A stretch of 64,000 nt of DNA from Zhihengliuella halotolerans. GTDB lineage: Bacteria > Actinomycetota > Actinomycetes > Actinomycetales > Micrococcaceae. Of this stretch, positions 33,202 to 42,949 are shown piece by piece. The notes under the pieces were generated by a model. That model was given only the letters and a program-made list of their open reading frames with translations. It was not told the DNA's origin and did not search any database. The translations under genes were made by a program, and so were the position numbers. Positions within the stretch are counted from its first letter, which is position 1. The number at the start of each line of letters is the position of its first letter. The DNA is taken from the NCBI RefSeq assembly GCF_004217565.1, contig NZ_SHLA01000001.1:3348001-3412000 (forward strand), read 5' to 3'.

Positions 33202-34425
33202 ATGACGTTTTCACTCGGAATAGTTGGAGCCGGCCAGTTCGCCGGCGTGTTCGCCAAGCTCTTCGCCGCGCACCCCGGAGTGGACCGCGTCTATGTCACG
33301 GACGTCGTCGCCGAGCGTGCCGATGCCCTCGCCGAGCGGCTCGACCTGGCGGGGGTGCACGCCGACTTCGAGCAGATGCTCGCCAGCGATGTCGACGCCG
33401 TCGCGCTGTTCACCCAGCGGTGGACCCATGGCCCGCTCGTCGTGCAGGCGCTGAACGCGGGCAAGCACGTGTACTCGGCGGTGCCCATGGCCGTGAGCCA
33501 GGCGGAGATCGCCGCGATCATCGAGGCCGTGCGTGCAACGGGCCTGACCTACATGATGGGGGAGACCAGCCAGTACAACCCGGCGACGGTCTACGCCCGC
33601 GGTCGCCATGCCAACGGGGACTTCGGGCGCATCATCTACGCCGAGGGCGACTACGTGCACGACATGGATCTGGGCTTCTACGACGCCTACAAGTACTCGG
33701 GCGGAGCGGACTGGAAGAAGACCGCGAGCTACCCGCCTATGCTGTATCCGACGCACTCGATCGGCGGCGTGCTCGGTGCGGTCGGCGGTCGGGCGACGAG
33801 CGTGAGCTGCATCGGCGTGCGGGACCAGCGGGGCGACGGCGTCTTCGACAAGGACATCAGCATGTTCGACAACGACTTCTCCAACGCCACGGCGCTCTTC
33901 GAGCTCGACGGCGGCGGCACCATGCGCATCAACGAGATGCGCCGCGTCGGCTACCCGTCGCACTTGCGCGAGTCCCGCTTCCGCTACTTCGGCACCGAGG
34001 CGAGCTTCGAGCAGCTCGCCGAGGTCAGCGTGTGGCAAGACAAGGAGAAAGTCACCGATGTCAGCTCAGTACTCGCCACCGCCGCGACGATGGGCGACGA
34101 CGATGACGCGCTCGCCGACGTCGCCCCCGCCCTGCGCGACGCCTTCGCCTCCGGCATGGCCGAGGTGCATGACGCCTCCCGGCTGCCGCGCGAGTTTGTC
34201 GGCCTGCCGAATGGGCATGAGGGCAGCCACCACTTCCTCGTCGACGACTTCGTCACCGCCGTGAACACGGGGACGCTGCCGCCCGTCAACGCGTGGGTCG
34301 CCGCGCGCTACACGTTGCCCGGCATCATCGCGCACGAATCGGCGCTGCGCGGCGGCGAGCGCCTGCCCGTCCCGGATTTCGGGGATCCCGAGGCGCCGGT
34401 GGGTGCCGCGGACCGCCGCGGATAG
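33202..34425 (+). CDS. Gfo/Idh/MocA family oxidoreductase
   Basis: The 407-residue NAD(P)-dependent oxidoreductase starts with a Rossmann motif GIVGAGQFAGVFAK (about 6-19). The next block, GKHVYSAVPMA, corresponds to the usual EKP/AKP catalytic lysine region but lacks the typical lysine-proline pair, which may change catalysis. Members oxidise sugars, inositols or sugar acids. Divergent from the alpha-galactoside operon and followed by a LacI gene four bases later, it should act on a galactoside or a derived sugar. Confidence 0.85.
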   Translation: MTFSLGIVGAGQFAGVFAKLFAAHPGVDRVYVTDVVAERADALAERLDLAGVHADFEQMLASDVDAVALFTQRWTHGPLVVQALNAGKHVYSAVPMAVSQAEIAAIIEAVRATGLTYMMGETSQYNPATVYARGRHANGDFGRIIYAEGDYVHDMDLGFYDAYKYSGGADWKKTASYPPMLYPTHSIGGVLGAVGGRATSVSCIGVRDQRGDGVFDKDISMFDNDFSNATALFELDGGGTMRINEMRRVGYPSHLRESRFRYFGTEASFEQLAEVSVWQDKEKVTDVSSVLATAATMGDDDDALADVAPALRDAFASGMAEVHDASRLPREFVGLPNGHEGSHHFLVDDFVTAVNTGTLPPVNAWVAARYTLPGIIAHESALRGGERLPVPDFGDPEAPVGAADRRG

Positions 34426-34429
34426 GGCC

Positions 34430-35461
34430 ATGAGTACGATGGCTGGTGTGAACTCCAGTCCAGCCGCAGCCCGCTCCGCCGTCACGCGCAAGGACGTCGC
34501 GCGTCTGGCCGGCGTCAGCACCGCCGTCGTGAGTTATGTCGTCAACGGCGGGCCGAAGCGCGTGGCGCCGGCGACCGAGGAGAAGGTGCGCCGGGCCGTC
34601 GAGGCCCTCGGCTACCAGCCCAACGCCGCCGCCCGCGCTCTGAAGCTCGGGTCCTCCGAAATGTTCGGGATGGTGGTCCCGGACGCGACCAACGCCTTCT
34701 TCGCGGCAATGGTGCGGGCCGTGGAGAACGCGGCGCTGGAGCGCGGGTTCGCTGTCCTCTTCGCCGATTCGGATGGCTCGCTGCGGACGGAGCGCCGGCT
34801 CGTGCAGAACCTCGTGAACCGGCGGGTCGACGGCGTGTTCCTGGCCAGCGTGCTCGCCGAGCCCGATCTGAGCGATCTCGAGCGGGCCGAGATGCCTGCG
34901 GTCCTGCTCAACCGCAGCGTCGAGAGTCCGGCGTTCAGCTCCGTGGGCGTGACCTTCGAGGAGGGGGCGCGGCGGGCGGTCGCGCATCTCATCGGCCACG
35001 GGCATCGCGATGTCGGCCTGATCATGGGCACCAATTCGGGTGCGGAGCTGGACCCCCGCGAGGCGGGCTGGCGGCGGGCGCTCGCGGAGGCGGGGCTGGA
35101 GGAGGGGATGGTCCTGCGTTCGGAGTTCACGCGCGAGGGCGGTTACCGCGCCGGGCGGCGGTTCCTCGCCGCCGCCGAGCGGCCCTCCGCGGTGTTCGTG
35201 AGCTCCGACCTGCAGGCGATCGGTTTCCTGCACGCGGTCCTCGAGGGCGGGCTGAAGGTTCCGGAGGACCTGGCGATCTTCGCCTTCGACGGTTCTCCGG
35301 AGTCCGCGTACAGCTGGCCGGCACTGAGCACGGTGGTTCAGCCGGTCGAGAAGATGGCGCGCGCCGCGGTCGACGCGCTGTTCGCTACGCGCGAGGGTCG
35401 ACCCGTCGAGCACCGGGTTTTCGACGTCGAATTGCTCCCGCGCGCCTCCTGCGGCTGCTAG
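34430..35461 (+). CDS. LacI-family transcriptional regulator
   Basis: The 343-residue repressor has an N-terminal LacI helix-turn-helix (about 20-65): VTRKDVARLAGVSTAVVSYV and the hinge ALGYQPNAAARAL. A sugar-binding periplasmic-protein-like domain follows (about 75-340). Start at 34430 is preferred (gatagg upstream); an ATG nine bases later is possible. It is co-transcribed with the oxidoreductase and probably controls the divergent alpha-galactoside operon. It overlaps the end of the convergent kinase gene by four bases. Confidence 0.93.
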   Translation: MSTMAGVNSSPAAARSAVTRKDVARLAGVSTAVVSYVVNGGPKRVAPATEEKVRRAVEALGYQPNAAARALKLGSSEMFGMVVPDATNAFFAAMVRAVENAALERGFAVLFADSDGSLRTERRLVQNLVNRRVDGVFLASVLAEPDLSDLERAEMPAVLLNRSVESPAFSSVGVTFEEGARRAVAHLIGHGHRDVGLIMGTNSGAELDPREAGWRRALAEAGLEEGMVLRSEFTREGGYRAGRRFLAAAERPSAVFVSSDLQAIGFLHAVLEGGLKVPEDLAIFAFDGSPESAYSWPALSTVVQPVEKMARAAVDALFATREGRPVEHRVFDVELLPRASCGC

Positions 35462-36120
35462 TCCCAGTCGATGACGCGGTCCGCGCGGTCCCTGGTCTGC
35501 TCGATGAGCCGGGCGTTGGCCTCGTCCGTGTCCGTGACCCAGGCCCGCGCCGCGTCGGGCGTCTTGCCGAACCGCTCGTGCCGGGCGATGAGCCGCTCGA
35601 TTCTCTTCTGCGCCGGCAGGTCCACGAACCAGATCTCGTCGCAGAGGCCGCGCAGCCGGGGCCATGGGTCGGCGTCGGCGAGCAGGTAGTTTCCCTCCGT
35701 GATGATCAGGCGGGCAGCGGGCGGAACTTCGATGCCGGCGGCGATGGGTTCCTCCAGGTCGCGCTCGAACCGCGGCGCGAACACCGGCCGGTCCGCGTCG
35801 CGGGCCAGCCGCTCCAGCAGCGCGACGTAGCCGTCGGCGTCGAACGTGTCGATCGCGCCTTTGCGTCCCAGCGCGCCGTGGGCTCTCAGGACGCGGTCGC
35901 TCAGGTGGAAACCGTCCATCGGCACGACGGCGGCCGCCGGCCCGAGGCGTTCGGCCAGAAGCTCGGCGAACGTCGATTTGCCCGCGCCGGGTGCGCCGGC
36001 GATGCCCAGTATGGCGCGCCCTTCCGAGACGCGGAGTAGATCCTCGGCACGCCGCACTGCGGCGGCGATCGCGGCCGTAGGGGCCGGCTGGGACGCGGTG
36101 GAGGGCGGACGAACGCGCAT
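35458..36120 (-). CDS. P-loop nucleoside/sugar kinase family protein
   Basis: The 220-residue ATP-dependent kinase belongs to the PRK/uridine kinase/PanK-like P-loop group. Walker A is GAPGAGKST (about 42-50), followed by VPMDGFHLSD and ITEGNYLL, which form the substrate lid. Similar kinases sit in sugar and polyol gene clusters and phosphorylate a sugar or nucleoside; none of the features fixes the substrate. It is divergent from the mannitol-type dehydrogenase, so phosphorylation of the ketose product (fructose or a relative) is a plausible inference. A tagact -10 lies seven bases before the ATG. Confidence 0.85.
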   Translation of the reverse strand: MRVRPPSTASQPAPTAAIAAAVRRAEDLLRVSEGRAILGIAGAPGAGKSTFAELLAERLGPAAAVVPMDGFHLSDRVLRAHGALGRKGAIDTFDADGYVALLERLARDADRPVFAPRFERDLEEPIAAGIEVPPAARLIITEGNYLLADADPWPRLRGLCDEIWFVDLPAQKRIERLIARHERFGKTPDAARAWVTDTDEANARLIEQTRDRADRVIDWD

Positions 36121-36167: not shown

Positions 36168-36198
36168 GCTCATCTGAGACAATCACAGCGCTCAAATG
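36168..36198 (+). promoter_or_regulatory. SorC-type operator pair upstream of the polyol dehydrogenase
   Basis: Half-sites gctcatctg (36168-36176) and gctcaaatg (36190-36198) lie 22 bases apart, start to start. A likely -10, tatgct (36200-36205), follows. The same two half-sites recur at 39584-39690 by the SorC and polyol importer genes, so this is probably the SorC regulator's site. Confidence 0.75.
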
Positions 36199-36286
36199 TT
36201 ATGCTCGATGGAAGCGAGGGTGTCGTGCATCACTTTGACGGTGACCGCGGGGCCTCGGAACGACTCTCGACACGAGGACGGGGAGC

Positions 36287-37849
36287 ATGATCATGGGCCA
36301 AAACGAAGTGGGGCTGGATGGACCCGTCCGCCTGAACGCGGCGGACCTGAAGTCGCCAGCGGCGCACGGGCGGGGCGTCGAGACGCCTGGGTATGCGCTG
36401 GATCAGCGCCGGGTCGGCATCGTGCACTTCGGCGTCGGCGGCTTCCACCGCGCCCACCAGGCCCTTTACCTCGACCGGCTCATGCAGCAGGGCCGCGCGC
36501 TCGACTGGGCCATCTGCGGCGTCGGCCTCATGCCCTTCGACACCGCGATGCGCGACGCGCTCACCGCCCAGGACGGGCTCTACACACTCGTCGAGAAGGC
36601 CCCGGACGGCACGCGTACCGCGCGTGTCGTCGGATCCATTGCCGAGTACCTCTACGCGCCCGACTACCCCGAGGCGGTGCTCGCGCGCCTGGCCGATCCG
36701 GCGGTCCGTATCGTCTCCCTCACCGTGACCGAGGGTGGCTACAACTACAACGCGCGCACCGGGGAGTTCCTCGCCGACACCCCCGAGGTGGCCGCCGACC
36801 TCGCGGCGGGGGCAGGGCAGCCCCCGCGCACCACCTTCGGGTTCGTGATCGAGGCCCTCCGCCGCCGTCGTGCCGCGGGGACCGCGCCCTTCACGGTGAT
36901 GAGCTGCGACAACATCCAGGGCAACGGGCATCTCGCGCAGAAGGTCTTCACCGCGTTCGCAGACCTGAAGGACCCGGAGCTGGGTACCTGGATCCGCGCG
37001 AACGTCGCGTTCCCGAACTCCATGGTCGACCGCATCACCCCGGTTACGACCGACGCCGACCGCGAGGCCGTCGCCGCCGACTACGGGATCGCGGACGCGT
37101 GGCCCGTCGTCTGCGAGGACTTCATCCAGTGGGTGCTCGAGGACGCCTTCCCGGCCGGACGCCCGCCGTTCGAGGAGGTGGGCGTGCAGGTGGTCGACGA
37201 CGTCGAGCCGTACGAACTCATGAAGCTGCGCCTGCTCAACGCGACGCACCAGGCGATGGCCTACACCGGCTACCTCGCCGGATACCGCTACGCGCACGAG
37301 ACTGCGCGCGACCCGCTCTTCGCCGAATTCTTCGCCGCCTACATGGACCGCGAGGCGACGCCGACCCTGCGCCCGGTCCCGGGCATCGACCTGGACGCCT
37401 ACAAACGCCAGCTCATCGAGCGCTTCTCCAACGAGCAGGTCCGCGACACGCTCGCCCGCCTCTGCGCGGAGTCCAGCGACCGCATCCCCACCTGGCTCGT
37501 CCCGGTCATCGCACACAATCTGGACGACGACGGCGGTGCCGCCCCACGCGGTTCGGTCGCCCTGAGTGCGGCGATCGTCGCGTCGTGGGCGCGCTACGCG
37601 GAGGGTGTCGACGAGGCGGGTGAGTCGATCGAGATCGTCGACCGTCTGAAGGACCGCGTCACGGCGGCGGCCGCGCGCCAGGATGAGGACGAGCTCGCGT
37701 TTCTGCGCGACCCGGAGCTCTTCGGCGATCTGGTGGAGAACGAGGAGTTCACCGCCCACTATGTTGCCGCGCTGCGCAGCTTCAAGACCGTCGGTTCGCG
37801 CGCGACGCTGGAGGCGCTGAGCGCGTCCGGCTGGAGCGGCCTCGTCTGA
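36287..37849 (+). CDS. Mannitol-type 2-dehydrogenase (polyol dehydrogenase)
   Basis: The 520-residue enzyme is a long-chain polyol dehydrogenase that interconverts a sugar alcohol (mannitol, arabitol or related) and its ketose with NAD. The nucleotide-binding block is FGVGGFHRAH (48-57), and the catalytic KxxxxNxxH motif is K313, N318 and H321 (KLRLLNATH). The ATG at 36287 has ggggag upstream. Its promoter carries two SorC half-sites, matching the downstream polyol ABC importer. It works with that importer and probably the adjacent kinase. Confidence 0.94.
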   Translation: MIMGQNEVGLDGPVRLNAADLKSPAAHGRGVETPGYALDQRRVGIVHFGVGGFHRAHQALYLDRLMQQGRALDWAICGVGLMPFDTAMRDALTAQDGLYTLVEKAPDGTRTARVVGSIAEYLYAPDYPEAVLARLADPAVRIVSLTVTEGGYNYNARTGEFLADTPEVAADLAAGAGQPPRTTFGFVIEALRRRRAAGTAPFTVMSCDNIQGNGHLAQKVFTAFADLKDPELGTWIRANVAFPNSMVDRITPVTTDADREAVAADYGIADAWPVVCEDFIQWVLEDAFPAGRPPFEEVGVQVVDDVEPYELMKLRLLNATHQAMAYTGYLAGYRYAHETARDPLFAEFFAAYMDREATPTLRPVPGIDLDAYKRQLIERFSNEQVRDTLARLCAESSDRIPTWLVPVIAHNLDDDGGAAPRGSVALSAAIVASWARYAEGVDEAGESIEIVDRLKDRVTAAAARQDEDELAFLRDPELFGDLVENEEFTAHYVAALRSFKTVGSRATLEALSASGWSGLV

Positions 37850-38034
37850 TCGAGGCTTTCCGGCTGTTCAGCAGCTGGCACAGGCCCGACGGAGCGTCCC
37901 GGAACAGCCCGGCGAGGCCTCCGGCGTGCGCGTGACCTACACGGACCGCTTGCGCATTACCCGCTGGTCGGTCGTCACCGGTGTGTACCTGTCGGTCCAG
38001 CCGCACGACGGCCGGTGCGCTTGAAGCCGGAGCC
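37850..38034. other. Non-coding gap after the polyol dehydrogenase gene
   Basis: No convincing gene, terminator with a T-tract, or regulatory motif was seen in these 185 bases. Frames here are short and lack ribosome sites. It separates two convergent genes. Confidence 0.4.
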
Positions 38035-38487
38035 CTACGCGTTCTCGGTCGTGGCTGCGGCCGCTGGCGCCCGCGCGGGAAGAGCGGCCGGCGGGCGGCG
38101 CCGCAGAGCGCGCCGGGCCAGCCAGAACGCGCCGGCGAGTGCGATCGCGGACAATGGCAGGCTCGCGAGCGGGACGAGCGTCTGCCCGACCATCAGGCTG
38201 TGCCAACACGCGGCGACGAGCATCAGTGTGACGGCGACGGTCGCGACGAACCGCGACATCCGGAAGCGCCAGAGCAGGACGAAGGCCATAGCCCCGGAGA
38301 CCAGAGGAACCGCGAGGGTCATGTAGACGAACATCGCCGTCGAGACCGCGGGCGGGCCGAACAGCGACGAACTCACCCAGAAGCCCCAGTCCAGGGGGAC
38401 CGCCACGAGCAGGCCGAGGGCCCCGCCTGTGACGACGGCGCCGACTGCCGCCGCTCCTCGACGCAATTCGTCCGCTGCCATTCTCAT
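38035..38487 (-). CDS. Hypothetical four-helix membrane protein
   Basis: The 150-residue protein has four predicted membrane helices (about 15-33, 45-65, 77-97, 105-125) with basic ends and an alanine/proline-rich tail. No family is recognised. The start used is the ATG at 38487, preceded by a cagggg ribosome site; an in-frame ATG two codons later is also possible. It lies between the dehydrogenase and SorC genes and points toward the dehydrogenase gene. Function unknown. Confidence 0.6.
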   Translation of the reverse strand: MRMAADELRRGAAAVGAVVTGGALGLLVAVPLDWGFWVSSSLFGPPAVSTAMFVYMTLAVPLVSGAMAFVLLWRFRMSRFVATVAVTLMLVAACWHSLMVGQTLVPLASLPLSAIALAGAFWLARRALRRRPPAALPARAPAAAATTENA

Positions 38488-38584
38488 CCCCCTGATTTGT
38501 CCGCGGAACCCTCCGTCCGCGCCATTGTTTCCACGGTATCGTGAAACAACCCACAGGGGCGACAACTCATGGTGAAGCGCGCGG

Positions 38585-39523
38585 CTATGCGTCGGCCAGA
38601 CCCGCGTGCTCGGCGAGGGCCGCGGCCAGCTCCCCGTCCACGACGAGCTGCTGGACGAATCCGCTGCGCAGCGCGGCCAGGACCCCGGGCAGGTTGTCCG
38701 CGCCGTAGGCGACGGCGACCGTCGTCGCGGCCGTGCGCAGCTGGTCGATCGTGACCGAGATGACCCGGCCGTCGAGGCCCGCGTCCACGTGCCCCCCGTC
38801 TGCCGTCAGCAGGCGCCCGGAGACCTCCGCCACGGCTCCCGCCTCCGCGATCGCTGTCCGTTCCGGCCCCGTGAGGCGCTCCCAGACCGTCGATCGGCCG
38901 GCGGTCCACGTGCCGATCGCGACCATCGCGATATCCAGACGGTCCGCCCGCGCCTGCGCCTGCGAGATCTCCGGAAGCCGGCGCAGGCTGTCGGCGAGCT
39001 CGGCTGTCTCGACGATCAGCGGCGCCGGCAGTGGCCAGGTCCGCCCGTCCGTCGCTGCGCCGAGCCGGTGGATCAGCTGGCCCGAGCCGCCGTCGTCGCC
39101 GACGCGCAGGTCGCCGGCGAGCTGTACGACGTCGCACGTGGGCAGTCGTTCGAGGTGCGTGGACATGAGGCTGAGCGTGCGGGACCAGGAGACGCCGATC
39201 GTGTCTCCTTCGCGAGCCAGCGAGCCGAGCGTGTCGGCGGCCTGTTCGGCCACGGATTCGCGCGCCGTGAAGCCGGCGGCTCCCCGCGCGATATCGATCG
39301 CGTCGACGCCGAGTGCCGCGGCGAGGGCGGCGGCGTCGATGCGCGTGTGGGCGGGGCGGTGGATCGTGATGTCGACGATGCCGTCCCGGCGCGCTTCGTC
39401 GAGGTAGCGGGCCACCTGGAAGCGCGAGATCCCGTGCTCCTTGGCGATCTCCACCTTCGACGTGTTGTTCAAGTAGTAGGCCGTGGCGATATCGGCCAGT
39501 AGCTCGTGGTGCGTCGTCGACAT
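38585..39523 (-). CDS. SorC-family sugar-binding transcriptional regulator
   Basis: The 312-residue regulator has an N-terminal helix-turn-helix (about 5-50): IATAYYLNNTSKVEIAKEHG and ISRFQVARYLDEAR. It is followed by the SorC effector domain, with IGVSWSRTL as the anion/sugar-phosphate site and TSxGRLL-type (VSGRLLTADG) strand near residue 215. It is divergent from the polyol importer. Half-sites with gctca cores over the importer promoter, upstream of itself and at the polyol dehydrogenase suggest that it controls all three. Confidence 0.92.
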   Translation of the reverse strand: MSTTHHELLADIATAYYLNNTSKVEIAKEHGISRFQVARYLDEARRDGIVDITIHRPAHTRIDAAALAAALGVDAIDIARGAAGFTARESVAEQAADTLGSLAREGDTIGVSWSRTLSLMSTHLERLPTCDVVQLAGDLRVGDDGGSGQLIHRLGAATDGRTWPLPAPLIVETAELADSLRRLPEISQAQARADRLDIAMVAIGTWTAGRSTVWERLTGPERTAIAEAGAVAEVSGRLLTADGGHVDAGLDGRVISVTIDQLRTAATTVAVAYGADNLPGVLAALRSGFVQQLVVDGELAAALAEHAGLADA

Positions 39524-39583
39524 GGCGATCCTCGGTCAAGGGGGGGGGAGTGGCGGCGGTGCGCTGAGACCCGCGGCCTTGGC

Positions 39584-39595
39584 GCTCAAATGAGC
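39584..39595. promoter_or_regulatory. Palindromic SorC site near its own gene
   Basis: gctca-aa-tgagc is a perfect palindrome containing the gctcaaatg half-site. It lies 61 bases upstream of the SorC start. It is 42 bases from the half-site at 39626, consistent with four helical turns and autoregulation. Confidence 0.65.
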
Positions 39596-39623
39596 GTTTC
39601 TGGTGATTCTGAGTATGCCACTC

Positions 39624-39652
39624 TTGCTCATCTGCGCAAATGTGGCTACAGT
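39624..39652 (+). promoter_or_regulatory. Promoter of the polyol ABC importer operon
   Basis: ttgctc (-35, 39624-39629), 17-base spacer, tacagt (-10, 39647-39652). The SorC half-site gctcatctg (39626-39634) overlaps the -35. Confidence 0.65.
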
Positions 39653-39659
39653 CACATAA

Positions 39660-39690
39660 CAGATGAGCGTCTACGACTGATCATTTGAGC
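39660..39690 (+). promoter_or_regulatory. SorC operator pair at the importer transcription start
   Basis: Inverted half-sites cagatgagc (39660-39668) and catttgagc (39682-39690) are 22 bases apart, mirroring the pair at 36168-36198. They cover the predicted transcription start, as expected for repression. Confidence 0.7.
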
Positions 39691-39727: not shown

Positions 39728-41107
39728 ATGAATCGTCAAAGCGCCCGACGCCTCGGCGAGATGCCGCTGAGCCGCCGCGGACTGCTGGGCCTCGGGCTCG
39801 GCGCGGCAGCCACCGCCGGGCTCTCCGCCTGCGGATCCAACGGATCGCCGCAGAGCCAGGAGATCGTCGTCGCGATCGTCTCCAATCCGCAGATGCAGGA
39901 CGCGATCTCGCTGATCGAAGACTTCCGCGCGAAAAATCCGGGCATCAACGTCCGCTTCGTCTCCCTGCCCGAGAACGAGGCCCGGGCCAAGATCACCGCG
40001 TCGGTGGCCACAGGAGGCGGCGAGTTCGACGTCGTCATGGTCTCCAACTACGAGACCCCCATGTGGGCGGAGAACGGGTGGATCACCGACCTCGTCCCGT
40101 TCATGGATGCGACCGACGGCTACGACCGCCAAGACTTCATCCCGACCATCCGCGAGGCGCTGACCGTGGGGGCCGGGCAGTACTCGGTCCCGTTCTACGG
40201 GGAGTCCTCCTTCCTGGTCTACCGCCAGGACCTGTTCGACGACGCCGGTATCAGCATGCCCGAGCAGCCTACGTGGGACGAGGTGGCGGAGATCGCCGCC
40301 CGGATGCACGACCCCGCGAACAACTTCTCCGGCATCTGCCTGCGCGGACTCGCCGGCTGGGGTGAGGTCATGGCCCCGCTGAACACCGTCATCAACACGT
40401 ACGGCGGGCGCTGGTTCGACGAGGCCTGGAACCCGCAGCTGGACAGCCCCGAGGTGCACGCCGCGGTGAGCGATTACGTGAACCTCGTGCGCAACCACGG
40501 CCAGCCCGGCGCAGCGACCTCCGGATACGGCGACTGCCTGACCCGTTTCTCCCAGGGCAACGCGGCCATGTGGTACGACGCGACGGCGATGGTCTCCTCC
40601 GTGGAGGATCCGGCGTCGTCCCTCGTGGTCGGCAAGACCGGCTACGCGCTCGCTCCCGTGAAGGAGACCGAGTCGGCCGGCTGGCTGTACACGTGGTCGC
40701 TCGCGATCCCCGAGACCAGCGAGCGCAAGCAGGCCGCCTGGGACTTCATCGCGTGGATGACCAACAAGGACTACTTCCAGCTCGTCGGCGACCAGGTCAG
40801 CTGGGAGCGACTGCCGCCCGGCAGCCGGCAGTCCACCTACGAGATCCCGCAGTATGCGGAGATCGCGTCGTCCTACGCGGGCCCGACGCTCAAGGCCATG
40901 GGCCAGGCCAGCCAGGAGACGTCGATGGTGCACCCCGTGCCCTACACGGGACTCCAGTTCGTGGGCATCCCCGAGTTCCAGGATCTCGGCACCCGCGTCG
41001 CGCAGCAGATCTCCGCCGCGATCGCCGGGCAGCAGAGCGTCGAGGCCGCGCTCGAACAATCCCAGAGCTTCGCCACGTCCGTGGCCCGTACCTACCAGGA
41101 AGGCTGA
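39728..41107 (+). CDS. Polyol ABC importer, solute-binding lipoprotein (SmoE/MtlE-like)
   Basis: The 459-residue lipoprotein has a Tat-like start (SRRGLLGLGLG) and lipobox LSAC (about 34-37), then a CUT1 binding-protein fold with similarity in layout to sorbitol/mannitol receptors (VPFYGESSFLVYRQDLFDDAG near 160, split as PFYGESS and LVYRQDLFDDAG). It binds sugar alcohols outside the cell. It is the first gene of a three-gene importer whose promoter overlaps SorC half-sites; linkage with a mannitol-type dehydrogenase supports a polyol ligand. Confidence 0.9.
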   Translation: MNRQSARRLGEMPLSRRGLLGLGLGAAATAGLSACGSNGSPQSQEIVVAIVSNPQMQDAISLIEDFRAKNPGINVRFVSLPENEARAKITASVATGGGEFDVVMVSNYETPMWAENGWITDLVPFMDATDGYDRQDFIPTIREALTVGAGQYSVPFYGESSFLVYRQDLFDDAGISMPEQPTWDEVAEIAARMHDPANNFSGICLRGLAGWGEVMAPLNTVINTYGGRWFDEAWNPQLDSPEVHAAVSDYVNLVRNHGQPGAATSGYGDCLTRFSQGNAAMWYDATAMVSSVEDPASSLVVGKTGYALAPVKETESAGWLYTWSLAIPETSERKQAAWDFIAWMTNKDYFQLVGDQVSWERLPPGSRQSTYEIPQYAEIASSYAGPTLKAMGQASQETSMVHPVPYTGLQFVGIPEFQDLGTRVAQQISAAIAGQQSVEAALEQSQSFATSVARTYQEG

Positions 41108-41110
41108 GCC

Positions 41111-42052
41111 ATGAGCACCGAAACCGCCGTGCGCCGCGGGGAGGGGGCCGGGCCCGCGAGCCCGGAGGCCCGCCGGGCCGCGCGCCGCGAGGGCTGGTCC
41201 CGCCGGCTTCCCCTGCTGCCCGCCCTGATCTTCACGATCATCGTCACCCAGATCCCGTTCGCGATGACCATCTGGTACTCGCTGCGGTCCTGGAACCTGC
41301 TGCGGCCCGACGGCGAGACGTTCGTCTGGTTCCAGAACTTCGTCGACATCTTCGCCGACTCCACGTTCCGCGGCGCCGCCGTGAACTCGATCCTCATCAC
41401 CCTCGGCTGCGTCTTCGCGTCCCTGATCCTCGGCACGCTGTTCGCGATCCTGCTGGACCGCGAGTTCCTCGGCCGCGGCATCGTGCGCACGCTGCTCATC
41501 ACCCCGTTCCTCATCATGCCGGCGGCGACGTCGATGCTGTGGAGCGTCTCCATGCTGAATCCGAGCTTCGGACTGTTGAACTGGGTCATCGGGCTCGTCG
41601 GCATCGGGCCGATCGACTTCACCTCGCAGCTGCCGCTGTTCTCCGTGATCATGGCGCTTGTCTGGCAGTGGACCCCGTTCATGATGCTCCTGATCCTCGC
41701 GGGGCTGCAGGCCCAGCCGAAGGACGTGCTCGAGGCCGCCTCGCTCGACGGCGCGGGGTGGGGCAAGACGTTCCTCTTCGTCACGCTGCCGCAGCTGCGC
41801 CGCTACATCGAGCTGGCCGTGCTCCTCGGCGCGATCTACGTGGTCAACACGTTCGACCAGATCTACCTGATGACGGCGGGCGGTCCCGGCACGGCCAGCG
41901 CCAACCTGCCCTTCTACATCTACCAGCGTGCCTTCCTCGGGTTCGACGTCGGCCAGGCCGCGGCCATGGGCGTCGTCACCGTGATCGCCACCATCATCAT
42001 CGCGACCTTCGCGCTGCGCCTGATCTTCCGCAGCTTCGACGTAAAGGACTGA
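41111..42052 (+). CDS. Polyol ABC importer permease (SmoF/MtlF-like)
   Basis: The 313-residue permease begins with a charged N-tail (1-40), then six membrane helices. The EAA loop (DVLEAASLDGAGWGKTF, LFVTLPQL) is at about 208-232. It follows the binding-protein stop by three bases and precedes the partner permease by three, so the three are one transcript. The transporter presumably uses a shared ATPase encoded elsewhere. Confidence 0.93.
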   Translation: MSTETAVRRGEGAGPASPEARRAARREGWSRRLPLLPALIFTIIVTQIPFAMTIWYSLRSWNLLRPDGETFVWFQNFVDIFADSTFRGAAVNSILITLGCVFASLILGTLFAILLDREFLGRGIVRTLLITPFLIMPAATSMLWSVSMLNPSFGLLNWVIGLVGIGPIDFTSQLPLFSVIMALVWQWTPFMMLLILAGLQAQPKDVLEAASLDGAGWGKTFLFVTLPQLRRYIELAVLLGAIYVVNTFDQIYLMTAGGPGTASANLPFYIYQRAFLGFDVGQAAAMGVVTVIATIIIATFALRLIFRSFDVKD

Positions 42053-42055
42053 GTC

Positions 42056-42949
42056 ATGGCCACGACACTGACTTCACCCACCCCCGCGCCTGGCGCGGCC
42101 GGCGAGGGGCCAGCGGCGCGCGCGCCCCGTCGTCGTACCGGATCCGCCGGCGGGCGACTGCTGACGATCCTCACCTGGCTGCTCGCGCTCGTGTTCTTCG
42201 CGCCGGTGCTGTGGATGGTGACGACGTCGTTCAAGCAGGAGAACGCGGCCGCCTCGACGCCGCCGACGTTCGTCTTCGAGCCGACCCTGCAGCAGTACGC
42301 GGACGTGCTGGCCCAGAACGCCGGGCCGTATTTCGCGAACTCGCTCATCGCGACGGGCGTCTCGACGCTGCTGGTCATCGCGCTCGCCGTGCCCGCGGCC
42401 TACGCGCTGAGCATCCGGCCCGTGCAGAAGACCTCCGACGTGCTGTTCTTCTTCATCTCCACGAAGATGCTGCCGGTCGTCGCCGTCATCATGCCGATCT
42501 ACGTGATCTCCGGCCGGTTGCACGTGCTCGACAACGTCTGGACGCTCGTGGTCCTCTACACGTCGATGAATCTGCCGATCGCCGTCTGGATGATGCGCTC
42601 CTTCTTCCAGGAGGTGCCGAGCGAGGTGCTCGAGGCCGCCCAGATGGACGGCGCCGGGCTCATGAAGACGCTGCGCTCGGTCCTCATCCCGATGGTGGCG
42701 CCGGGTATCGCCGCGACCGCGCTGATCTGCGTGATCTTCTCCTGGAACGAGTTCTTCTTCGCACTCAACCTGACTGCGGCGAAGGCCGCCACCGTGCCCG
42801 TGTTCCTCATGGGCACGATGACGAGCGAGGGGTTGTTCCTCGCCAAGCTCTCCGCCGCGAGCGTGCTGGCCTCGCTGCCCGTGGTCCTGGCCGGCTGGGC
42901 CGCCCAGAAGCAGCTGGTCCGCGGCCTGTCGATGGGTGCGGTGAAGTAG
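42056..42949 (+). CDS. Polyol ABC importer permease (SmoG/MtlG-like)
   Basis: The 297-residue permease has a Pro/Ala-rich N-tail, six membrane helices from about residue 37, and the EAA loop SEVLEAAQMDGAGLMKTL at about 190-207, followed by VLIPMVAPG. It pairs with the permease upstream to form the channel. The operon ends here; it converges on aspA with a seven-base gap. Confidence 0.93.
   Translation: MATTLTSPTPAPGAAGEGPAARAPRRRTGSAGGRLLTILTWLLALVFFAPVLWMVTTSFKQENAAASTPPTFVFEPTLQQYADVLAQNAGPYFANSLIATGVSTLLVIALAVPAAYALSIRPVQKTSDVLFFFISTKMLPVVAVIMPIYVISGRLHVLDNVWTLVVLYTSMNLPIAVWMMRSFFQEVPSEVLEAAQMDGAGLMKTLRSVLIPMVAPGIAATALICVIFSWNEFFFALNLTAAKAATVPVFLMGTMTSEGLFLAKLSAASVLASLPVVLAGWAAQKQLVRGLSMGAVK

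Follow-up and report, generated by a model that had tools for sequence, protein, structure and literature searches.

What reads the short, regularly spaced repeats that precede the polyol genes of Zhihengliuella halotolerans? The genome consists of a single contig of 3.58 Mb, and the stretch of 64,000 nucleotides analysed here, its positions 3,348,001-3,412,000 (the window, whose own numbering is used below), carries genes for a long-chain polyol (mannitol 2-) dehydrogenase (36287-37849, + strand), a SorC-family regulator (38585-39523, - strand; SorC in the following) and an ABC (ATP-binding cassette) importer that begins with a substrate-binding protein of polyol type (39728-41107, + strand). 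In dozens of relatives the repeats stand at the corresponding genes, and they are therefore very probably landing sites for SorC. Judged from sequence comparison, it is highly likely that they are the operators of this neighbouring regulator, which would bind the spaced pairs as a tetramer and repress the importer, the dehydrogenase and its own gene.

Paired half-sites before the polyol genes

The pattern is built from two words, GCTCATCTG and GCTCAAATG. Upstream of the dehydrogenase, on the + strand, an exact copy of the former, running on as GCTCATCTG(AGA), occupies 36168-36176 (predicted SorC site 1) and an exact copy of the latter 36190-36198 (predicted site 2). Before the importer, on the - strand, GCTCATCTG lies at 39660-39668 (site B), just downstream of the proposed importer transcription start, and GCTCAAATG at 39682-39690 (site C), 22 bp from site B. 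The start-to-start distance of the two words is 22 at both promoters, and since their order is swapped, the importer pair is no simple inversion of the dehydrogenase pair. Two further copies lie between the importer and SorC: site A (GCTCATCTGCGC, 39626-39637, + strand, with GCTCATCTG at 39626-39634) covers the proposed importer -35 inside the proposed SorC promoter, and site D, the perfect dyad GCTCAAATGAGC at 39584-39595, lies between the proposed SorC promoter and the start codon of that gene. The exact GCTCAWNTGAGC at site D is the only one in the genome; a dyad of this kind is also present in the same-genus loci L002-L004. The word GCGCAAATG, located at 39634 and 8 bp away from site A, is not included among the sites. 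Both pairs (the importer one inverted), the palindrome and the copy over the -35 had been listed in a preliminary description of this DNA, and every one of them lies where it had been placed.

Taken alone, the words are ordinary; it is their spaced pairing that stands out. With up to one mismatch, the single words occur 17 and 5 times in the window, against shuffle means of 15.7 and 5.2, that is, with no excess, and GCTCAWMTG is found 60 times genome-wide (6 of them at this locus) compared with 83 for the backwards control. Pairs of GCTCANNTG with 0-30 bases between them number 3 in 3.58 Mb, 2 of which belong to this locus (control 2). At exactly the spacing seen here, up to two mismatches yield 16 places in the genome (control 21), 2 of them exact, both here, none with one mismatch and 14 with two. 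Across the 3.58 Mb, the two pairs of the locus thus stand alone at 22 bp with 0 or 1 mismatch.

Conservation of the pair alongside SorC

The family set comprised 197 genomes, 48 of which contain a SorC orthologue (E <= 1e-40). The 22/23-bp pair, GCTCANNTG-N13/14-GCTCANNTG, occurs in 43 of the 197 genomes, at 69 places, with 3 matches in all for the backwards control, and its presence tracks the regulator gene: 39 of the 48 genomes with SorC contain it, as against 4 of the 149 without (Fisher p ~6e-28, relatedness ignored), and for 63 of the 69 places SorC is no more than 20 kb away. A scan that allowed any gap of 0-30 between copies of GCTCANNTG, since superseded by the 22/23-bp scan, matched 125 of the 197 genomes; loosely spaced pairs are common, and it is therefore the spacing that carries the information. 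Among same-strand exact sites within 60 bp of each other (41 loci, 854,575 bases), a distance of 22 was seen 38 times, 23 was seen 15 times and all other distances 14 times, with none in the control.

Upstream of the dehydrogenase, whose starts are approximate (tblastn), 300 bases were searched in 44 loci (the window, L033, L040-L071, L073, L075-L081, L087 and L089; L031 and L032, duplicates of L040 and L041, were omitted), and here, as in the importer, other-family and half-site counts below, the scoring was confined to spacings of 22 and 23 bp. Of the 44 dehydrogenases, 39 are preceded by a pair that deviates at no more than 2 of 14 positions (27 exact; reversed control 0/44). All 39 importers, taken at an identity of at least 60% and leaving out L065 and the second copy in L086, are likewise preceded by a pair (33 exact; reversed control 0/39). 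These counts bear directly on the idea that the repeats are chance similarity in intergenic DNA. The single words, no commoner than in shuffles or controls, and the loosely spaced pairs of the 125 genomes would favour it, but it is contradicted by the exact pairs before orthologous genes, the empty reversed controls at both promoters and the co-occurrence with SorC, and we reject it as barely credible.

The pair also tracks the dehydrogenase where this gene lies away from SorC, be it by 16 kb (L043), by several kb (L064) or on another contig (G070/L081). The last is one of the six places not counted within 20 kb of SorC (G070, G164, G182, G066, G107 and G108). In G164, an exact 22-bp pair (L082:8477-8510) precedes a transporter of the RbtT/DalT/CsbX family of the major facilitator superfamily, 466 kb from SorC, and the 20 kb around SorC yielded no importer; the type of transporter may have been exchanged and the operator retained. 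The stretches fetched from G066, G107 and G108 contain none of the query genes, and their pairs are probably chance matches. In other families, a pair with at most one mismatch lies near SorC in 16 of 21 loci (control 0), these being L096-L117 (22 loci) minus L099, which belongs to the window's own family, and the best-scoring 21 of 61 matching other-family genomes.

This breadth matters for the question of whether another regulator binds the repeats. A LacI-type protein is encoded nearby (34403-35461), and the interval between sites A and B contains a CRP/GlxR-like dyad, TGTGGCTACAGTCACA, at 39641-39656. Close relatives (83-95%) of the LacI-type protein, however, flank only the same-genus loci L040-L042, whereas the pair follows SorC across many genera and into other families, and this neighbour was rejected as the binder; the CRP-like dyad, for its part, differs in sequence from the repeats. 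Recognition of the repeats by a protein of either type, or by any regulator other than SorC, is very unlikely.

The regulator and its operators among relatives

The regulator carries the C-terminal domain of the SorC family (Pfam Sugar-bind, PF04198, 150 bits, cut-off 27), and phmmer aligns it over nearly its full length, from residue 6 or 7, with 2w48 (sorbitol operon regulator) and 8r7y (DeoR), including the N-terminal helix-turn-helix of DeoR/SorC; Pfam at E 0.001 listed no helix-turn-helix family for it. Scoring 117 bits against the Bacillus subtilis DeoR equivalog NF053881 (cut-off 420), it is a relative of DeoR rather than DeoR itself, and the A of its VVQLAGD stands where DeoR has a lysine, which we take to be the covalent effector lysine of that protein. 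With 2w48, presumably from Klebsiella, it shares 71.5 bits over residues 7-302 and the character of a sugar/polyol operon regulator, a likeness judged on the protein alone and between distant sequences.

B. subtilis DeoR, a SorC-family member of the DeoR subclass, and CggR bind two half-operators as tetramers, or dimers of dimers, according to PMC11229326. In the operator sequences given there, we counted TTCAA at 13 and 35 (22 bp) for DeoR and GGGAC at 5 and 25 (20 bp) for CggR/gapA. The pairs described here likewise consist of two half-operators about two helical turns apart, at 22 or 23 bp, and, by analogy with these published SorC-family operators, a tetramer probably occupies each pair. 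The two-turn spacing and the tetramer put forward in the preliminary description fit DeoR and CggR, but the relatives have 22 or 23 bp, so that the strict value of 22 has to be relaxed. A 22-bp register common to DeoR despite the different sequence suggests that the shape of the tetramer sets the spacing.

The consensus of the sites, GCTCAnnTGAG, is near-palindromic. An AG extension towards the palindrome marks the first site at 31 of 39 dehydrogenases and 30 of 39 importers, and the second site at only 3 and 1 of 39, respectively; an extended first and a plain second site recall the palindrome-plus-direct-repeat of DeoR, whose dra-nupC-pdp operator, as presented in PMC11229326, also has one palindromic and one half operator side and overlaps a promoter beside the regulator gene. 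Unlike there, the half-site is GCTCAnnTG rather than TTCAA, and the genes concern polyols rather than deoxyribonucleosides. The CggR operator of gapA resembles the present one in its two palindromic half-operators about two turns apart, bound there by a tetramer, and differs in the DNA-binding domain of its regulator, its position at +32 to +77 and its GGGAC motif (PMC11229326). Distances between the centres of near-palindromic sites peak at 22/23, 31 and 53/54 bp, or about 2, 3 and 5 turns, so that two tetramers could share one face of the DNA between the divergent importer and SorC promoters.

The recognition helix, SRFQVAR, is strongly conserved, each position being identical in 65 to 70 of 70 loci (which include the same-genome pairs L030/L061 and L067/L099). 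Arg34 and Arg39 of the regulator align with R34 and R39 of DeoR (chain 8r7y, with a 5-residue offset counted here), both named as base-contacting in PMC11229326. Where residue 39 is Arg, 135 of 140 half-sites begin with G, compared with 2 of 12 where it is Ala or Asn (p ~1e-10, relatedness ignored); the tally includes no pair from the dehydrogenase upstream regions of L058, L065, L071 and L073, and the 2/12 is rough because in L071 and L075 the best-scoring importer pair adjoins site A and not B-C. The class lacking Arg39 consists of four loci, three of one genus and a single one of a second genus, in which SorC may have been acquired by transfer, and therefore represents perhaps one or two events. 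Sampled more widely, in a set of 13 loci with residue 39 unreadable in L128 and L129, the former genus has Ala, Asn or Ser at this position in 10 of 10 readable loci; 4 of the 13 loci show no pair near SorC. Two observations speak against a simple dependence on residue 39: site A retains GCTCA in L125, L126, L127 and L130, all without Arg39, and single paired half-sites with G persist in L126 and L127. The retained G of site A may be due to its -35 role, and residue 39 of SorC may recognise the base with which the half-site begins; we regard this as a lead and not as proof. Whether actinobacterial SorC regulators follow a general operator code, with sites about 2, 3 or 5 turns apart and residue 39 reading the first base, is a more tentative proposition.

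SorC orthologues with no paired operator upstream were seen in L123, L124, L128 and L129. The genomes of the first two (fetched also as L072 and L088) have neither importer nor dehydrogenase in the 20 kb fetched, and the SorC genes of all these loci are perhaps orphan regulators in decay.

Promoter layout and a proposed polyol switch

The sites hold conserved positions relative to promoter-like hexamers. After site 2 of the dehydrogenase, TGn-TAnnnT occurs in 34 of 39 loci (counted without a control), so that the final TG of site 2 could be the TG of an extended -10, and the proposed -10 itself, TATGCT (36200-36205, + strand), is conserved in position; a generic promoter scan listed in its stead 36267-36294, which runs across the dehydrogenase start codon. 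At the importer, the proposed -35 TTGCTC (39624-39629, + strand) overlaps site A and lies 17 bp before the proposed -10 TACAGT (39647-39652, + strand), an arrangement, TTG[CT]TC-N17-TAnnnT, which 36 of the 39 importers share, TA[GCA]AGT being present in 30 of these (again without a control). Both promoters are thus proposed from recurrence. TTTGCG-N17-CATACT, reading from 39640 to 39612 on the other strand, is a candidate SorC promoter that would enclose site A and be followed by the palindrome.

The CRP/GlxR-like dyad covers the proposed importer -10, and the same-genus loci L001-L004 have it in identical form; other genera carry a ATGACTAGAGTCAC-like sequence at its position. It is possibly a second, catabolite-linked input.

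With site A over a recurrent -35-like hexamer and site 2 ending in a recurrent extended -10 TG, the conserved words might be seen as mainly promoter elements (TTGCTC as a -35, TG as part of an extended -10), the repeat being a by-product. None of sites B, C and D, nor site 1 of the dehydrogenase, lies within a proposed core hexamer, however, and the pair at 22/23 bp, with B, C and site 1 among its members, recurs at both promoters, which makes this explanation most improbable.

For SorC acting through these operators, we infer the following sequence of events. Each of the two promoters would very probably receive one SorC tetramer, a dimer of dimers, on its 22/23-bp pair of near-palindromic sites. 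At the dehydrogenase, the pair would span about -44 to -14 if 36200-36205 is the -10, with site 2 supplying the extended -10 TG; at the importer, one site would lie on the -35 and one pair right after the transcription start. Because the sites overlie or adjoin core promoter parts, SorC would, when no inducer is present, block RNA polymerase at both promoters, and would block its own gene via site A and the palindrome, until a sugar alcohol or a catabolite releases it. Some SorC-family members also activate, and the outer dehydrogenase site, at about -44 to -36, where a good -35 hexamer was not seen, is placed so that an activator could use it; SorC might then bind the sites as an inducer-dependent activator or a mixed regulator. 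We hold this to be unlikely, since the overlap with the proposed core elements, the extended -10 TG at the dehydrogenase and the -35-like hexamer at the importer in the 34 and 36 of 39 loci noted above, is expected for occlusion, and the title of PMC11229326 terms DeoR and CggR repressors.

Several observations weigh against the proposed SorC operators. Nine of the 48 genomes with SorC contain no exact pair, three of them (L051, L075 and L076) having degenerate pairs and three (L072, L074 and L088) showing neither importer nor dehydrogenase beside SorC. In G182, a pair stands at the importer and the best SorC relative is only 30% identical. No pair at 2 mismatches precedes 5 of the 44 dehydrogenases (L058, L065, L071, L073 and L080, whose homologue is 46% identical). 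The spacing is not exactly 22; generic promoter scans listed neither the proposed dehydrogenase promoter nor that of the importer, for which the hexamer counts stand without a control; and the compared genomes are related, some loci being near-identical, so that the counts are not independent. The dyad, CTCAnnTGAG, moreover differs in polarity from the TTGAAn6TTCAA of DeoR (PMC11229326), and the DeoR geometry is therefore not directly transferable, with no base-for-base match. On balance, comparative genomics, through the co-occurrence with SorC and the pairs before both genes, supports the earlier proposal that SorC is the binder and links importer, dehydrogenase and regulator.

The same proposal had tentatively included the divergent small kinase (35458-36120, - strand; NF006743, 286 bits, cut-off 227), a member of the nucleoside/nucleotide kinase family whose nearest solved structure, 3c8u, is named fructokinase. 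Conservation lends this link no support. The kinase was found beside the dehydrogenase in three genomes only, those of the window, L040 and L041 (L031 and L032 being the same genomes as the latter two); L042, of the same genus, keeps the pair but yielded no kinase within the 20 kb retrieved, and in the other genera sampled the pair likewise stands without a kinase. The pair persists without it and is therefore conserved for the dehydrogenase; the kinase was rejected as a conserved SorC target, and control of it by SorC, though possible, is without support.

The remaining features place the switch in a polyol setting. The dehydrogenase belongs to the mannitol 2-dehydrogenase/polyol dehydrogenase family (Pfam Mannitol_dh 172 bits, cut-off 27; Mannitol_dh_C 151 bits, cut-off 30.7), has mannitol 2-dehydrogenase 7rk4 and mannitol dehydrogenase 1lj8 as its nearest solved structures, and, at 353.5 bits, falls far under the cut-off of 600 of the D-arabinitol 4-dehydrogenase DalD equivalog NF043014. 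The importer consists of the binding protein (SBP_bac_1), closest to the sorbitol ABC substrate-binding protein 4rya (395.5 bits), and two permeases (BPD_transp_1), A at 41111-42052 and B at 42056-42949, both on the + strand. Since the nearest structures of enzyme, importer and regulator are mannitol dehydrogenases, a sorbitol-binding protein and a sorbitol operon regulator or DeoR, the polyol context is sound. Within the locus, an open reading frame of 176 amino acids (38035-38565, - strand) begins about 20 bp past the SorC stop, has no Pfam or NCBIfam match at E 0.001, and has a relative only in L040/L031 among the loci scanned. A Gfo/Idh/MocA-type oxidoreductase and the LacI-type regulator (33202-35461) flank the locus and are kept in the same-genus L040-L042, with no close relative seen in the other genera fetched.

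As a gene set, the locus resembles the smo locus of Sinorhizobium meliloti (SmoEFGK, MtlK, SmoC), which, according to PMC10433430, also unites a polyol ABC importer, a mannitol/arabitol dehydrogenase and a regulator and differs in having an ATPase gene, smoK, a sorbitol dehydrogenase, smoS, and a DeoR-type regulator. The importer genes found here encode a single binding protein and two permeases, no search having been aimed at an ATPase gene. AtlR of Corynebacterium glutamicum, compared by description alone, is an actinobacterial regulator that PMC7999487 names as repressor of arabitol/mannitol catabolic genes and calls DeoR-type. Among the matches listed from open-licence literature (titles and abstract starts), there was no description of this operator or of a SorC polyol regulon in this group.

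The switch is a solid but ordinary type. SorC operators of this spacing are already known from B. subtilis, and what is new, and well supported, is the actinobacterial case, with its own sequence and promoter layout. The SorC orthologue of 48 of the 197 family genomes can be assigned a specific operator and a small regulon of importer, dehydrogenase and regulator, and a simple rule suffices to identify this operator in further genomes. A specificity rule for SorC regulators may also come from the way in which residue 39 covaries with the opening base of the half-site.

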